From positions 62,001-126,000 of the forward strand of contig NZ_CP011270.1 in NCBI RefSeq assembly GCF_001610835.1: a stretch of DNA of 64,000 bases, read 5' to 3'. The stretch comes from Planctomyces sp. SH-PL14. Lineage in GTDB: Bacteria; Planctomycetota; Planctomycetia; Planctomycetales; Planctomycetaceae. Positions 51,857-62,381 of this stretch are shown in pieces (position 1 is the stretch's first letter; each line of letters begins with the position of its first letter). The notes under the pieces were generated by a model, which had not been told where the DNA came from, did no database searches, and saw only the letters and a list, made by a program, of their open reading frames with translations. The position numbers were made by a program, and so were the translations under genes.

Positions 51857-52182
51857 CGCGTTCTTGCCGGCGCAGCTCTCATAGCTCAAACCCAATGTGC
51901 GACGGCTGCTGGGGTCAAGGGGGTCTCACCCCCTTGCCGCCGGAGGCGCTTTCCCGCTGAACCGTGGGAAGCAACGGACGTCCCCTTTGTGGCACCGGCG
52001 TTGAGAACTCCCTCAAGGTGGATCGCTTGCTCTGGAATCCCCGCGGGTCGGTGAGGGGGCATACGGCACGTTGTCCGGGCTTGGATACGCCCTCCTCCAG
52101 ACATCTCTCGACGGCCAGGCCTCCGGCGGGCAAGAGGGCGTTGCCCCCTTGCATCCCCCACCAGGGTCCCCCTGGACCCGGT
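51857..52182 (-). repeat. Structured dispersed repeat, copy F (inverted)
   Basis: This full copy lies 7 bp after the metX stop but in the opposite orientation, so its 3' end abuts the metX stop and its 5' end points toward the zinc-ribbon gene 76 bp away. It is the only copy not downstream of a same-strand gene. Hairpin 1 is CCAGGGGGACCCTGG, hairpin 2 is GCAAGGGGG against CCCTCTTGC with a G-U pair on the minus strand, and hairpin 3 is GGGGGTGAGACCCCC as in copy D. Both long-range half-sites and the tail GCCGGCAAGAACGCGG are present. Confidence 0.85.
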
Positions 52183-52258
52183 ATGGTCTCCCTTCTTACT
52201 CGAAGGTTCTGCCTGCAATCTTCTATCATCAACGGAGTTCGACGCCTCGGAGGATCTC

Positions 52259-54259
52259 ATGCCCCTGTCTGTCACCTGTCCGGAATGCGCCAAAACTCTG
52301 CAGATCCGCGACGAAAGCTTCCTGGGCAAAAAGGTCCGCTGCCCCAGCTGCCAGAACGTCATCGTCCTTCGGCTCCCCGGAGAAACGGAAGATGATGACG
52401 AAGTCCTGATCGAACTCGTCGATCCGATCACCCCCACTCCCCCGTCCCGCCCGACTCCGGCTCCGACCTCCGCCCCCAAGTCCGCCTCGGCTCCCGCCGC
52501 TCCCCCGGTTGCCCCCTCCCCTTCTCCCATTCCCGCAGCCAGACCGGCGGCCCGCCCCGCCCCAGACCCGTTCGGAATCGTGGAGGAAGAAGAAGAGCCC
52601 GCCGCCTCCGGTGCCGCCGCCGAACACCTGCGGCGGATGATCGAACAGAAGAAGCGCCGCAGCCGCAACAACGCCGTCCTGATCGTCGGAGTGCTGGGAA
52701 TCGCGGGCATCGCCGGAGCGATCGCGATCCCGATGCTCAACAGTGCCAAAATGCCGGTCGCGGCCGCGCCCTCCGCGGGGACACCCGCCACGCCGGGCGC
52801 TCCGGCCGCCGTTCCCGTCGCCGCCGGCGTCGTCACCGAAGAGGACCTCAACCGGCAACCGGAACTCATGGCCGAGTTCCGGCCGACCAACGGCAAGCCG
52901 ATCGACCTGCGGATGGTCCCGGACGGCGTCAACTTCCTGATCCACCTCCGCCCCGCGCGGCTGTGGGCCAACGACGAAGCGATGACGGAGCTCCGCTCCT
53001 GCCTCACGGAGCCGGTCGTGAAGTGGATCGAAGGAGCGATCCAGCGGAACTGCCGCCGCACGCCCGACCAGATCGACGAGCTGCTCGTCGCCATTGTCCT
53101 CGGTCCCACCGGCTCCCCGCCGCAGATCGCGGCCGTCGTCAACCTCGTCGCTCCGGCCAAGCCCTCCGACCTGATCGAAGAGTTCAAGGGGCAGATCGTC
53201 AAAGAGGCGGGCAACGCCCGTCTCATCACGAATGGCCAGAACTACTTCGTGGTCTCCGGCCTGCAGCAGTTCGCCATCGGACCGGCCAACGCGGCCACGG
53301 AGATCGAAGCGGCCCTCACAGCTCCCAACGAAACGATCCCGGACGGCGTCCTGGAGGTCGTCCGCCAGTCCGACCGGGACCGGCTGTTCACGATCGTCTT
53401 CGAGATCGACGACGTCCGCCGGAACGTCGATACGCTCTTCGCCCCTGTGGCGATCAAAGCGATCAACAACGTCCTGGACTGGTTCGGCGAGGACGTTGCA
53501 ACCGTCGGCTGGTCGGCCCATCTCGGCGACACGTTCCACTCCGAGTTCACGTTCTTTCCCAAGGGGAGCCGCAGCGCGCGGGGGGTTGTGGCGACACCAC
53601 GGGTGGTGCAGGAGACGTTCCGGATGCAGCTTCCGGACATGCCGCCGCTCCTCGCAGACGCGGTGAAGAAAATGAATCCGCCGACGGCCGGCTTCCGGCA
53701 GATCATCGGCCGGTTTCCGGCAATGATGCAGGCGGTCGCGCTGGAGACGGCGGCGACGGTCAACGCCCGGACCGCGCGGCTGACGACGGTCCTCCCGGCG
53801 AAGGCGGCGTCGAATCTCGCGCTGGGGACACTGTTGACCTGGGACGAGTCGACCCGGACGAACTTTGCGTCGGCTCCGGCGTATGAGGTGGCCGATGCCA
53901 AGCCGGCGCTGCCGGACAAGGTGGAAGATCGGCTCCGCATCCCGATCGACTGCGACGTGACATTCCCGCTGGAGCCGGCGTTTGCTTATCTGCTTGGTGA
54001 AGTCGGGGTCGAGGTCTTCGTGGACGGGAACGCGCTGAAGTCGGCGGGGATTACGAAGAACGAAGTCCAGACGCTGAAGCTGGGGAAGGCACCTCCGTTC
54101 AAGGCGATCCAGGCGATTCTGAATCGGTCGGACCGGGTCCAGACCTATCCGGAGATCGCGTTGTCGATCGATCAGGCGGCGAAGAAGATCACGGTGACGA
54201 CGAGGGCGGACGCGGCGGCGAAGGGTTTGCCGATCTTCGACATCCGGGGGATGAAGTAG
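52259..54259 (+). CDS. zinc-ribbon membrane protein of unknown function
   Basis: The 666-residue protein opens with a zinc ribbon (CPECAKTLQIRDESFLGKKV, then RCPSCQ) of the MJ0042/planctomycete type, followed by a Pro/Ala-rich linker (~60-115), one membrane helix (~140-158) and a large exported domain (~190-660). The exported part is beta-rich with several LVxxL/VxLV blocks. The arrangement puts the zinc ribbon inside and the large domain outside the cytoplasm. I cannot name the family; no enzyme motif is evident. ATG 52259 has GGAGG at 5-nt spacing. Repeat copy G begins 20 bp after its stop. Confidence 0.7.
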   Translation: MPLSVTCPECAKTLQIRDESFLGKKVRCPSCQNVIVLRLPGETEDDDEVLIELVDPITPTPPSRPTPAPTSAPKSASAPAAPPVAPSPSPIPAARPAARPAPDPFGIVEEEEEPAASGAAAEHLRRMIEQKKRRSRNNAVLIVGVLGIAGIAGAIAIPMLNSAKMPVAAAPSAGTPATPGAPAAVPVAAGVVTEEDLNRQPELMAEFRPTNGKPIDLRMVPDGVNFLIHLRPARLWANDEAMTELRSCLTEPVVKWIEGAIQRNCRRTPDQIDELLVAIVLGPTGSPPQIAAVVNLVAPAKPSDLIEEFKGQIVKEAGNARLITNGQNYFVVSGLQQFAIGPANAATEIEAALTAPNETIPDGVLEVVRQSDRDRLFTIVFEIDDVRRNVDTLFAPVAIKAINNVLDWFGEDVATVGWSAHLGDTFHSEFTFFPKGSRSARGVVATPRVVQETFRMQLPDMPPLLADAVKKMNPPTAGFRQIIGRFPAMMQAVALETAATVNARTARLTTVLPAKAASNLALGTLLTWDESTRTNFASAPAYEVADAKPALPDKVEDRLRIPIDCDVTFPLEPAFAYLLGEVGVEVFVDGNALKSAGITKNEVQTLKLGKAPPFKAIQAILNRSDRVQTYPEIALSIDQAAKKITVTTRADAAAKGLPIFDIRGMK

Positions 54260-54279
54260 AGAGCGGAGTACATTCTCCA

Positions 54280-54603
54280 CCGGGTCCAGGGGCACCCTGG
54301 TGGGGGATGCAAGGGGGCAACGCCCTCTTGCCCGCCAGAGGCCTGGCCGTCGAGAGATATCTGAAGGAGCACGTATCCAAGCGCGGACACCGTGTCGTAT
54401 GCCCCCTCACTAACACGCGTGGATTCCAGAGCGAGCGGTCCATTTTGAGGGACTTCTCAACGCCGGCACCACAAAGTGGATGCCCGTTGCTTACCACGGT
54501 TTCTTATCGGAGTGCCTCCGGCGACAAGGGGGCGTGGCCCACTTTATCCCAGCGGCCGTAGCGCGATGGGTTCGAGGTAGCAGCGCCGCGCCGGCAAGGA
54601 CGT
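54280..54603 (+). repeat. Structured dispersed repeat, copy G
   Basis: This full copy starts 20 bp after the zinc-ribbon gene stop and ends 1 bp before the stop of the convergent FG-GAP gene, filling the gap. Hairpin 1 is intact. Hairpin 2 is GCAAGGGGG against CCCTCTTGC. This copy is the most decayed in structure: the long-range half-sites read CCGCCAGAGGC and GCCTCCGGCGA, with two mismatches, and hairpin 3 has one mismatch. The tail GCCGGCAAGGACGTCC is present. Confidence 0.85.
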
Positions 54604-57998: not shown

Positions 57999-58298
57999 CT
58001 TAAACCCAACGTGCCACGGCAGCCTGGGGTCAAGGGGGCCACGCCCCCTTGCCGCCGGAGGCGCTTCCATGAGGAACCGTGGGAAACAACGGGCGCCCGC
58101 TTTGTGGAACCGGCAGTGAGGACTCCCTCAATCTACACCGCTCGCTGTGAAATCCCTGCGGGTTGGTGAGGGGGCATACGGCACGGTGTCCGCGTTTGGA
58201 TGCTCACTCCTTCAGACAGTTGTCGACGGCCAGGCCTCCGGCGGGCAAAGGGGCGTTGCCCCTCTGCACTCCCCACCAGGGTGCCCCTGGACCCCGGT
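57999..58298 (-). repeat. Structured dispersed repeat, copy H
   Basis: This copy is on the minus strand, downstream of the amt1 3' RNA pair on the same strand (it starts 82 bp after RNA copy 1). Hairpin 1 is intact, hairpin 2 is GCAGAGGGG against CCCCTTTGC with a G-U pair on the minus strand, hairpin 3 is AGGGGGCGTGGCCCCCT, and both long-range half-sites are exact. The 3' tail has diverged and is not recognisable beyond ACGTTGGGTTTAAGC. Confidence 0.85.
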
Positions 58299-58380
58299 GG
58301 CCCGTATCTGGCGACCACCAATCAGCGAATGCGCCCACCGGGGAGGGACTCTGCGCCAACAGTCCCCCTAAAAGCAGGAA

Positions 58381-58487
58381 GACCCAGCCTCCCGAGGTGG
58401 TCGCACAGACCTCGAGAGACTGGGTCAATCCTTCGTGCATCATGCACGCACCAACACCGAAGTTCCCAACTTCGGTCGCCAGGGAGA
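58381..58487 (-). ncRNA. Structured RNA element, amt1 3' region, copy 1
   Basis: On the minus strand this 107-nt element starts with TCTCCCTGGCGAC, then a hairpin (GAAGTT/AACTTC), GTGTTGGT, a second hairpin (CGTGC/GCACG) and a 16-bp terminal hairpin opening CCCAGTCTCTCGAGGT and closing ACCTCGGGAGGCTGGG. Two stem positions of the terminal hairpin are U-G pairs on this strand and would be A-C mismatches on the other, so the minus strand, the same as amt1, is the likely RNA. A TCTTCCTGCTTTT tract follows, so it may end transcription. The GAAGTT and CGTGC stems covary with the other copies. Confidence 0.6.
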
Positions 58488-58643
58488 TCACGCTTCCACT
58501 GAGGTTTCGTTCCGGGCTCGACTCCGGGACAGCCATTTCAGTGGAAGTGTTTCGTTGTCTCCTTTGATTCGGCTTCGGAGTGGAAGACTCGCAAAGCCGC
58601 AGAGTGTGTCTTGTTGACCTCGTCCCGCTCGGGAGGAGGGGAG

Positions 58644-58752
58644 GACCCAGCCCCCCGAGGTGGTCGCACGGACCTCGAGGGACTGGGCCAATCCTCAGTG
58701 CGTCTTGCACTTACCAACACCGGAGTTCCCAACTCCAGTCGCCAGGGAGAGA
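58644..58752 (-). ncRNA. Structured RNA element, amt1 3' region, copy 2
   Basis: This copy starts about 23 nt after the amt1 stop codon and precedes copy 1. It has the same order: TCTCCCTGGCGAC, hairpin GGAGTT/AACTCC, GTGTTGGT, hairpin AGTGC/GCACT and the terminal hairpin CCCAGTCCCTCGAGGT/ACCTCGGGGGGCTGGG. Relative to copy 1, the first hairpin changes A-U to G-C and the second changes C-G to A-U, both compensated. No T-tract follows the terminal hairpin here. Confidence 0.6.
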
Positions 58753-58775
58753 CTTTTCGCTCGGCTCGGTTCGGC

Positions 58776-60287
58776 TCAGTTGTAGTGGTAAGCCGATTCG
58801 CCGTGCTCGTTGATATCCAGACCTTCTTCTTCGGTCGTTTCGCTGACCGTGAAGCCGATCGTCTTGTGGATCAGGAGACCGAGGATGATCGTCAGGACGA
58901 AGGCGTAGACGCCGGTCGAGACGAGGCCGATGGCCTGCAGCTTGACCTGCTCCATGCCGCCCATCACCGGACGAACCGCGAAGTAACCAACCAGGAGAGC
59001 ACCGAGGGCTCCACCGACACCGTGGACGCCGACGACGTCCAGCGAGTCGTCGTATCCAAGCTTCGGCTTGGCCTGAACCGCGAGGAAGCAGACGAGACCG
59101 CCGATCAGACCGATCACCAGGGCACCGCCCGGGCTGACGTGGCCGGCACAGGGGGTGATCACGACGAGGCCCGCCACCATTCCCGACGCGACGCCGAGGG
59201 CGGTCGGCTTACCAACCTTGAGCCATTCGGCGAACATCCAGGAGCCCGTCGCGGCACTGCCGGCGATGGCGGTTGTGGCGAAGGCCATCACGGAGACGGC
59301 ACCGGCGACCGGCAGGAAGTCCTTGCCGACGGCGATGGCCGAACCGGCGTTGAATCCAAACCAGCCCACCATCAGCATGCCGGCCCCCATCAGGGTCCAG
59401 CCAACGCTATGCGGAACGAACTGCGGACCGGGGTAGCCCCGACGCTTCGGAAGAATCAGGATCAGGGCGAGAGCGGAGACACCGGCGAGGACGTGGACGA
59501 CCGTACCACCGGCGAAGTCCATGACACCCTTCTGGAACAGCCAGCCGTTGACGTTCCACACCCAGTGGGCCACCGGGTTGTAGACGATCGTGGCCCACAG
59601 GACGGTGAAGAGACACCACGCACTGAACTTCACGCGTTCGGCCACGGCACCGACGATCAGGGCCGGGGTGATGATGGCGAACATCATCTGGAACATCGCG
59701 AACATCAGCTCGGGAATCCCGACCGGAACCGAGCCGACCGTGTCACCGCTGGTGAGCTGGCGACCGTAGGTATCGTCGAACTTCATCGGATCCGTCGGCG
59801 TGAAAGCCTTCAGGAAGACGAGCCCCGGCTCCCAGGCCAGGTAGCTCAGCTTCGGCTTGTCGGTGCCGTCGTCATTCTTTCCGGCATCGGACGTGATGAC
59901 GGAGTTCACGGAGAAGGCCATGTTGTAGCCGTAGGCCACCCACTCAATTGCGATGAGCGGGACGCAGACCATGACGACCATGAACATGTTGAGCAGGTTC
60001 TTCGAGCGGACCATCCCGCCGTAGAACAGGGCGAGGCCCGGCATCATGAAGAACACGAGGGCCGCACTGACCATGATCCACGCGGTCGAACCGGTGTCAT
60101 AGGCCGGAGCGGCGGCCGGAGCCGCGGCGGAGGCCGCCTCAGCAGAGGGCGCCGCCGGGGCGGCTGGCGTTTCAGAGGCCGCTGGCGCGGCCGCAGCAGG
60201 GGGTGTTTCCTGAGCACCGACAGTCGGCGTCAAGGCCGTGGTCCAGAGGACCATGGCGAGGAGAGCGAGCGCGCACTTTCTGAGCAT
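58776..60287 (-). CDS. amt: ammonium transporter (Amt family), first copy
   Basis: The 503-residue protein has a signal peptide (~1-24), an unusual Ala/Pro-rich linker (~28-62) and eleven membrane helices of the Amt/Rh fold. Amt landmarks include ALFYGGMVRSKN, GTVVHVLAGV (first pore His) and GVHGVGGALG (second pore His), plus the C-terminal EGLDINEHGESAY. It conducts NH4+/NH3 into the cell. ATG 60287 is preferred over a TTG at 60296. A sigma-54-type sequence lies 95 bp upstream of the ATG, and two structured RNA copies follow the stop. No glnK/glnB gene is nearby. Confidence 0.9.
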   Translation of the reverse strand: MLRKCALALLAMVLWTTALTPTVGAQETPPAAAAPAASETPAAPAAPSAEAASAAAPAAAPAYDTGSTAWIMVSAALVFFMMPGLALFYGGMVRSKNLLNMFMVVMVCVPLIAIEWVAYGYNMAFSVNSVITSDAGKNDDGTDKPKLSYLAWEPGLVFLKAFTPTDPMKFDDTYGRQLTSGDTVGSVPVGIPELMFAMFQMMFAIITPALIVGAVAERVKFSAWCLFTVLWATIVYNPVAHWVWNVNGWLFQKGVMDFAGGTVVHVLAGVSALALILILPKRRGYPGPQFVPHSVGWTLMGAGMLMVGWFGFNAGSAIAVGKDFLPVAGAVSVMAFATTAIAGSAATGSWMFAEWLKVGKPTALGVASGMVAGLVVITPCAGHVSPGGALVIGLIGGLVCFLAVQAKPKLGYDDSLDVVGVHGVGGALGALLVGYFAVRPVMGGMEQVKLQAIGLVSTGVYAFVLTIILGLLIHKTIGFTVSETTEEEGLDINEHGESAYHYN

Positions 60288-60381
60288 TGGAAACAAAGCC
60301 TCCCGGGTAGCGGAAACACTAACGACAACGGCCCTTACAACCAGCAGAAAGGGTGTCTGGCTGTGGCGTGCTCACGCATTA

Positions 60382-60397
60382 AACAATTCGCGTGCCA
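60382..60397 (-). promoter_or_regulatory. Sigma-54-type -24/-12 promoter for amt1
   Basis: The minus strand reads TGGCACGCGAATTGTT, which matches the sigma-54 consensus TGGCACG-N4-TTGC in every position except the last C of the -12 box (T here). It lies about 95 bp upstream of the amt1 ATG, leaving a leader of roughly 85 nt. The same arrangement occurs before the second amt gene. Confidence 0.6.
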
Positions 60398-60535
60398 GTT
60401 GTCCCCGCCGAGATCGCCGGGAGGCGTTCTGAGTCGGCCAGAGACTCGCGATTTGCAATTTTTGCTACGTCAAGAGGCAGTTGAAGAATGGCCCGAAAGT
60501 CGCAGGGACTGCACAAACAGGAAGCACCTGTGCGC

Positions 60536-60653
60536 AAAAAAAGCGCCCAGCCTCCCAAGGTGGTCGCACGGACCTTGAGAAACTGGGCGGCTTTATGTGC
60601 GTCATGCACTTACCAACACCGGGGAGTTCCAAACGCCGGTCGCCAGGGAGAGA
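60536..60653 (-). ncRNA. Structured RNA element, amt2 3' region, copy 3
   Basis: This copy is the second of the pair after amt2. Its first hairpin differs (CCGG/CCGG closing pairs), the second is GTGC/GCAC, and the terminal hairpin is CCCAGTTTCTCAAGGT/ACCTTGGGAGGCTGGG. The change of a G-C pair (CGAGG/CCTCG) to A-U (CAAGG/CCTTG) is compensated. The hairpin is followed by GCGCTTTTTTTG, with seven T in a row, so this copy ends in a clear intrinsic terminator. It separates amt2 from the amt1 promoter. Confidence 0.65.
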
Positions 60654-60757
60654 TTTGAGATCCGAGTCCGCCACGCTTTCGATACCACTCAGCGGGCTGC
60701 GATTCGAACGGTGTCTTGATCCTTTGACTGCGACTTCCGGGGAAGGCTTTCAGGAGA

Positions 60758-60866
60758 GGTCCCAGTCTCCCGAGGTGGTCGCACGGACCTCGAGAGACTG
60801 GGCCAATCCTCAGTGCGTCATGCACTTACCAACACCGGAGTTCCCAACTCCAGTCGCCAGGGAGAG
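60758..60866 (-). ncRNA. Structured RNA element, amt2 3' region, copy 4
   Basis: This copy starts 12 nt after the amt2 stop codon. It is almost identical to copy 2: TCTCCCTGGCGAC, hairpin GGAGTT/AACTCC, GTGTTGGT, hairpin AGTGC/GCACT, and terminal hairpin CCCAGTCTCTCGAGGT/ACCTCGGGAGACTGGG with only one G-U pair. It lies 215 nt before copy 3 and shows the same order and spacing relative to the gene as copy 2 does for amt1. Confidence 0.6.
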
Positions 60867-60878
60867 AACACTTGTCTT

Positions 60879-62381
60879 TCAGCCGTGGGAAGCCGTGTGG
60901 ATCAGCGGCTTGGCCAGGAAGTTCGGGTAGCACTCGTTGCCGTGTTCGCCGACATCGAGACCTTCGAATTCCTCTTCCGAGGTGACCCGGATTCCCATCG
61001 TGATCTTGAGGACCAGGAAGATGACCAGCGAGGTGGCGAACGACCAGACGCCGACCGCCCCGATCCCCTTGAGCTGAACCATGAGCTGATCCATCATCGT
61101 CCACTTGTCGGCGGGGATCACGGCCCCGGACGAATCGACCGGCGGAAGGGCCGCGATCGTGGAGGCGATGTCGTAGTTGTAGAACAGGGCGACGGCCAGC
61201 GTTCCAAAGACACCGTTGAGCAGGTGCACCGACAGAGCCCCCACCGGGTCGTCAATCTTCAACTTGTCGAAGAACAGCACACCTACGACCGCCAGCGCAC
61301 CGCCGATCGCACCGACGATTGCCGCCGACTGGATGGTGATGAAGGCACACGGAGCAGTCACGGCCACAAGGCCAGCGAGGCACCCGTTGAGGATCATGCT
61401 GAGGTCCGGTTTGCCGAGAAGGACCCAGGCCACCACCAGAGCGGCGAGAGACCCCGTGCAGGCACCCATATTGGTTGCGACGAGGACATGGCTGATCGCC
61501 TTGCCGTCGCCGACCGACATCGTCGAGCCCGGATTGAATCCGAACCAGCCGAGCCACAGGATGAACACGCCGAGTGAAGCCGACGTCAGGCTGTGACCAG
61601 GAATCGGAATGACCTTGCCATCCTTCGCGTACTTGCCGATGCGGGGCCCCAGGACCAAGATCCCGGCCAGGGCCGCCCAGCCTCCCACGGAGTGAACCAC
61701 CGTGCAGCCGGCGAAGTCGCGGAAGTTGTTCGCTCCCAGGAACCCGCCCCCCCAGATCCAGTGACCGCTGATCGGGTAGACGAAGGCGACGAGGATGAAG
61801 CTGAAAATCAGAAACGCCATGAACTTGATTCGCTCGGCCACCGCCCCGGACACGATCGTGGCGGCAGTCCCGGCGAACACGGTCTGGAAGAAGAACTTGG
61901 CCCAGAACGGGACCGGGGTCCAGTTGATCGCGCCGTAAACGCCCTTGTACTCCTCGGTCGAGAACGGGTTCATCGCCGCGTAGGCGGAACCGAGAGCCGG
62001 CGAGTTGTCTTCACCCGCGGCAAAGAACAGCCCCTGCTGGCCGTAGTACGGGGTTCCATCGCCGAACATCAGGCCCCAGCCGATCACCCAGAACGAGAGG
62101 GCGGACGCGGCGAAGACGATGAAATTCTTGGCGAGGATGTTCGTGCAGTTCTTCGCCTGGCACAGACCGCTCTCCACGAGAGCGAATCCGGCGTTCATCC
62201 AGAACACGAGCATGCCGGCGATAAGAACCCACATCGTGTCCATGCCGATGCGGAGAGACGACGAATTCGAAGTCAGAGAGGCCAGGGGGTCCGCCGGCGG
62301 CGTCTCCTGGGCCAGCCCCGAACTGGCCGCTAACGACCAAAGGAATACGGTACATAGAGCGAGCGCGCACGATCTCCACAT
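60879..62381 (-). CDS. amt: ammonium transporter (Amt family), second copy
   Basis: The 500-residue protein has a signal peptide (~1-24) and no Ala/Pro linker, then eleven membrane helices. Pore markers are ALVESGLCQAKN, CTVVHSVGGW (first pore His) and SVHLLNGVFG (second pore His); the C-terminus carries EGLDVGEHGNECYP. It conducts ammonium. It is on the same strand as the first amt gene, about 590 bp upstream of it. A sigma-54-type sequence lies about 143 bp upstream of the ATG, and RNA copies 4 and 3 follow its stop. Confidence 0.92.
   Translation of the reverse strand: MWRSCALALCTVFLWSLAASSGLAQETPPADPLASLTSNSSSLRIGMDTMWVLIAGMLVFWMNAGFALVESGLCQAKNCTNILAKNFIVFAASALSFWVIGWGLMFGDGTPYYGQQGLFFAAGEDNSPALGSAYAAMNPFSTEEYKGVYGAINWTPVPFWAKFFFQTVFAGTAATIVSGAVAERIKFMAFLIFSFILVAFVYPISGHWIWGGGFLGANNFRDFAGCTVVHSVGGWAALAGILVLGPRIGKYAKDGKVIPIPGHSLTSASLGVFILWLGWFGFNPGSTMSVGDGKAISHVLVATNMGACTGSLAALVVAWVLLGKPDLSMILNGCLAGLVAVTAPCAFITIQSAAIVGAIGGALAVVGVLFFDKLKIDDPVGALSVHLLNGVFGTLAVALFYNYDIASTIAALPPVDSSGAVIPADKWTMMDQLMVQLKGIGAVGVWSFATSLVIFLVLKITMGIRVTSEEEFEGLDVGEHGNECYPNFLAKPLIHTASHG

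Follow-up and report, generated by a model that had tools for sequence, protein, structure and literature searches.

Two neighbouring ammonium-transporter genes of Planctomyces sp. SH-PL14 are each followed by two tandem copies of one structured element of about 110 nt, and the question raised by this locus is what such doubled elements may do at the 3' end of a message. The window, i.e. the whole stretch of DNA that was analysed, comprises 64,000 nucleotides and corresponds to bases 62001-126000 of a single 8.44 Mb contig. Both genes belong to the Amt family and are arranged head to tail, each on the minus strand; the labels amtB and amtA are our own. The best NCBIfam model for amtB is TIGR03644 ("marine subtype"), which scores below its curated cut-off, while TIGR00836 scores above. 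The two proteins are 30% identical. The genes and the element copies, with P3 denoting the third hairpin of the unit, are arranged as follows:

60879..62381, minus strand, amtB, ammonium transporter of 500 aa (NCBIfam)
60752..60867, minus strand, copy B1, first after amtB, 12 nt past the stop codon, without U-run
60536..60653, minus strand, copy B2, second after amtB, P3 directly followed by UUUUUUU
58776..60296, minus strand, amtA, ammonium transporter of 506 aa (TIGR00836 above cut-off)
58640..58754, minus strand, copy A1, first after amtA, 23 nt past the stop codon, without U-run
58370..58489, minus strand, copy A2, second after amtA, P3 followed by CCUGCUUUU, a weak U-run

An earlier note, made from the sequence alone, had described two tandem copies per amt gene on the amt strand, beginning 12-23 nt after the stop. 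All four are present at these distances, and the spacing that it gave is borne out as well, with copy starts separated by 263 nt behind amtA and about 213 nt behind amtB. Pairwise identity among the copies is 80-95%, highest between the first copies A1 and B1 (95%) and lowest between the second copies A2 and B2 (80%). Homology ends sharply at the borders of the units; flanks and most of the spacer fail to align. Homology between the spacers of the two 3' UTRs was considered too, and the alignment was not convincing.

Every copy is predicted to fold into two small hairpins, P1 and P2, and a third one, P3, that is long and GC-rich; in copy B1 they are located as follows:

60829..60860, minus strand, hairpin P1, CUGGCGAC...GUGUUGG with wobble-rich base and apical GUUGGGAAC
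60812..60826, minus strand, hairpin P2, AGUGC-AUGAC-GCACU
60752..60810, minus strand, hairpin P3 including its outer helix, 16 pairs in the consensus and 3 more outside them, loop CCGUGCGACC

The three hairpins proposed earlier reappear in the RNAalifold consensus, which contains 38 pairs, six of them with double-sided changes among four copies from one genome. The compensated changes that had been pointed out are real (GGAGTT/AACTCC versus GAAGTT/AACTTC, AGTGC/GCACT versus CGTGC/GCACG, CGAGG/CCTCG versus CAAGG/CCTTG). Shuffled alignments gave 1.8 double-sided pairs, and none of 500 shuffles reached the observed six; this control uses four sequences and a structure derived from the same four, and their relatedness is only partly allowed for. 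Paired cells amount to 98.7% and drop to 37-48% when the partners are slid by 1-3 columns. In P3, which has at least 16 pairs, all cells are paired (100%) and double-sided changes occur; covariation extends to the outer helix. The description of TCTCCCTGGCGAC and GTGTTGGT as conserved unpaired segments stands in part: UCUCCC, located ahead of P1, is invariant and unpaired in the consensus, whereas most of the remainder is predicted to pair mutually, because the base of P1 is formed by CUGGC.AC and GUGUUGG through several U-G and G-U wobbles.

Minimum free energy z-scores of the four copies are -4.2, -4.6, -3.8 and -2.5. P1 and P2 alone give -1.3, -2.4, -1.9 and +0.4, values that are unremarkable in three of the copies and not remarkable at all in B2; it is P3 that accounts for most of the low folding energy. 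Placement of the RNA on the amt strand is upheld by all four copies, whose sense folds (-59.7, -61.9, -60.9 and -49.4 kcal/mol) surpass the antisense folds (-49.1, -49.4, -50.2 and -40.9 kcal/mol) by 8-12 kcal/mol; an element on the antisense strand was rejected on account of this poorer fold. Two further interactions are permitted by the sequence, namely a switch with UCUCCC competing for the 3' side of the P3 stem, and a pseudoknot between UGGU of P1 and ACCA of the P3 loop. The bases concerned are invariant in the four copies, and neither interaction was adopted.

In all four copies P3 presents a GC-rich stem-loop behind the stop codon on the strand of the gene, as expected of an intrinsic terminator. 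The strong U-run stands directly after P3 of B2; it is the seven T of the earlier note (60536-60542), which follow the second copy behind the upstream amt gene, and together with P3 it looks like an intrinsic terminator. P3 was passed over by a simple terminator scan, since its loop is longer than 8 nt and the scan accepts loops of 3-8 nt; only a competing stem at A2 was scored. The third hairpin alone resembles a terminator. A plain terminator would have no use for P1, P2 and the conserved loops, and no U-run follows the first copies.

How far the element extends beyond these two genes was examined in the host genome and in wider collections. DNA search, a loop pattern and strong covariance-model matches agree that the four copies are the only ones in the 8.44 Mb genome. 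In the host, a third amt gene (L084 1728-3113) precedes two genes with translations resembling PII/glnK proteins (L084 1728-4117), and neither this amt gene nor its glnK-like neighbours bear the element in the host genome search. As the rest of the genome is devoid of it, no other nitrogen gene there carries it. A different repeat of about 300 nt occupies intergenic positions 58000-58345 of the window and occurs in at least 40 copies genome-wide, 85-91% identical and on both strands; this count reflects a scoring of just 40 of 1180 candidates, so that more copies probably exist. Similar stretches seem to be present near 51900-52230 and 54190-54500. In the same genome nine matches to the CsrA family exceed the Pfam cut-off and no Hfq was found, an unusual set of RNA regulators.

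The earlier note knew of no matching Rfam family, and indeed none of all 4227 families, including glnA, Downstream-peptide and L17DE, reaches its gathering threshold. Scanned against Rfam, the window yields only a tRNA, and the element region only scr4677 (12.7 bits against a threshold of 41, E 1.8). Covariance model R1 was run on 59 relatives and on genomes of the family (170) and the phylum (392), and gave only weak matches beyond the four copies, the fast, stricter filters of the large searches being such that very diverged relatives could be lost. The weak matches that were inspected (L006-L009, L025) show isolated hairpin likeness, and none of these lies downstream of an amt gene. The earlier note had asked for recurrence next to amt, glnK or glnA, and this was sought in the family and phylum genomes and not found. 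The pattern CCTGGCGACNGN{1,6}TTNGGAAC has two foreign matches in the 392 phylum genomes, both at loci without R1 score, and a DNA search of 367 class genomes returned fragments of 22-26 nt only, at chance level. Plasmids yielded no element, and 17 matches to a 17-letter pattern in viral contigs were dismissed as chance. One viral contig (L077 70-150) has an inverted repeat GTCGCCAGGGAG/CTCCCTGGCGAC running into CCGTAGCTTAGGAACTTGG; its likeness to the 5' part of the unit is partial, without R1 score and probably due to chance. No second species of the same genus was among the genomes searched. Taken by the objections raised beforehand, the element is not scattered at random genes, does show covariation and matches no known family.

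The corresponding slot in related genomes is well populated. Homologues of amtB often precede amtA in the same gene order; three relatives (L033, L035, L036) have the order amtB-glnK-amtA-glnK with two strongly similar glnK-like genes, and in others (L038, L041, L042 among them) a single hairpin with U-run follows the amtB or amtA homologue. Since relatives place glnK or hairpin terminators here, the element sits in an ordinary end-of-message slot. It resembles these terminators in place, GC-rich hairpin and, after the second copies, U-run, and differs from their single short hairpins by its three hairpins per unit, two units and conserved sequence. Two planctomycete-like contigs, for which the label Kuenenia is doubtful, share another conserved amt 3' structure of unrelated sequence, a nested long hairpin behind the amtA homologue (L016 3030-3115, L017 3864-3934; GGGTGCCCC...GGGTGTGTACTCCGCA.TTACACACCC...GGGGCAT).

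That two amt genes carry a structured RNA without Rfam match in their 3' UTRs, on the amt strand, is supported by our observations. As to its role, the reading we prefer, with about an even chance of being correct, is that the 3' UTRs of the two adjacent amt messages share a structured, lineage-specific module, a terminator joined to a stabilising structure, doubled and copied between genes. We infer that transcription would run through the first copy, which has no U-run, and end at P3 and the U-run of the second (UUUUUUU in B2, CCUGCUUUU in A2). The first copy would remain in the message as a stable structure, blocking 3' exonucleases and backing up the message end. The unit would have been doubled and then transferred between the amt 3' ends, either recently or with continued homogenisation, as proteins only 30% identical and first copies 95% identical imply that the elements either spread separately from the old divergence of the genes or have been kept alike since. 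Termination alone does not call for the conserved P1/P2 sequence and P3 loop, so an added role is likely; conservation of P1/P2 suggests protein binding, perhaps, or a 3'-derived small RNA, and the near-invariant P1/P2 part and P3 loop are probably binding sites as well, most likely for a protein. Either role seems likelier than a ligand because the element is missing from the other nitrogen genes of the genome. Binding of CsrA was considered in view of an invariant GGA at the tip of P1 and the CsrA paralogues present, and the GGA was not counted, being too common in such sequence.

Small RNAs could instead be the actual product, each unit of about 110 nt being released from the amt 3' UTR, and nitrogen limitation that raises amt mRNA would then release them too. 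The invariant 5' UCUCCC, unpaired in the consensus, lies in a CU-rich segment (UCUCUCCC), and the ribosome-binding sites of other mRNAs could be targets for pairing with this segment. With two hairpins and a terminator behind the segment, the unit is laid out as small RNAs usually are; its ends are sharp and its copies repeated. We nevertheless regard this as unlikely: no sigma-70-like promoter precedes any copy, so release would require cleavage; Hfq was not found in the genome (a control search detected it in 5 of 14 genomes); neither amt leader contains a complementary run of at least 8 bases; relatives for a seed comparison are missing; and A1 and B1 lack the U-run. A repeat with no function of its own, derived either from recombinational duplication of a unit or from a once mobile element and kept alike by gene conversion between the tandem amt loci, would account for its being found in only one of the genomes searched, the sharp borders and the closeness of the tandem copies, in a genome with other dispersed intergenic repeats. 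REP- and BIME-like extragenic palindromes are likewise repeated palindromic units between genes. Such families are dispersed, with many scattered copies, whereas here just four copies in one orientation stand at two sites, all directly past two amt stops and none elsewhere in the genome. Moreover, the changes between copies preserve pairing, and neither inverted-repeat insertion ends nor a transposase was noted alongside. We give this explanation, too, a low probability.

The earlier note had implied a nitrogen-sensing tandem aptamer, and a 3' metabolite aptamer for glutamine, ammonium or 2-oxoglutarate that controls termination or decay of amt messages would suit the two amt genes, the doubled units and the conserved P1/P2 part and P3 loop. 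There is precedent in glnA RNA and Downstream-peptide RNA, small, structured and sometimes tandem elements linked to nitrogen genes including ammonium transporters, with tandem glnA RNAs known upstream of such genes (PMC2864571). Doubling and the link to nitrogen genes are shared; those RNAs, however, are 5' leaders of cyanobacterial or marine origin, whereas our element has a 3' position, another sequence and fold, and no match to the glutamine or other Rfam families. Riboswitches recur across species with covariation, while this element was found in one genome only, and there neither the third amt gene nor the glnK-like genes next to it nor any other gene has it. P3 is also judged too stable to be opened by the short UCUCCC/GGGAGA pairing, as it contributes most of a total fold of -49 to -62 kcal/mol. 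No positive evidence for ligand sensing emerged, and we consider such an aptamer highly improbable. A broader proposal is a novel class of regulatory RNA, arranged in tandem within 3' UTRs and residing in the glnK slot of relatives. By binding a protein or ligand at P1/P2 and the P3 loop, it would make termination, decay or small RNA release of the ammonium-transporter mRNAs respond to a signal in the cell; we hold this to be distinctly doubtful. The closest parallel in position is the L17 downstream element, a structured 3'-UTR motif of one kind of gene, often without a gene directly behind (PMC2864571). That element is widespread and tied to ribosomal protein L17, in contrast to a doubled element of one planctomycete genome, two amt genes and no Rfam match. 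No result backs membership in either the L17 downstream element or glnA RNA, and we treat the element as an unclassified structured 3'-UTR RNA; for RNA elements of ammonium transporters in planctomycetes, PMC2864571 was the only relevant work found in the open-access literature searched.

If the module of the two amt messages is regulatory, ammonium uptake would be controlled by a doubled RNA at the 3' end, in a phylum where regulation by RNA has hardly been studied and in a genome with nine CsrA-family proteins above the cut-off and no Hfq found. If it serves only as terminator and stabiliser, it would be an example of a structured 3' end that arose in one lineage and was copied between neighbouring, anciently diverged paralogues.
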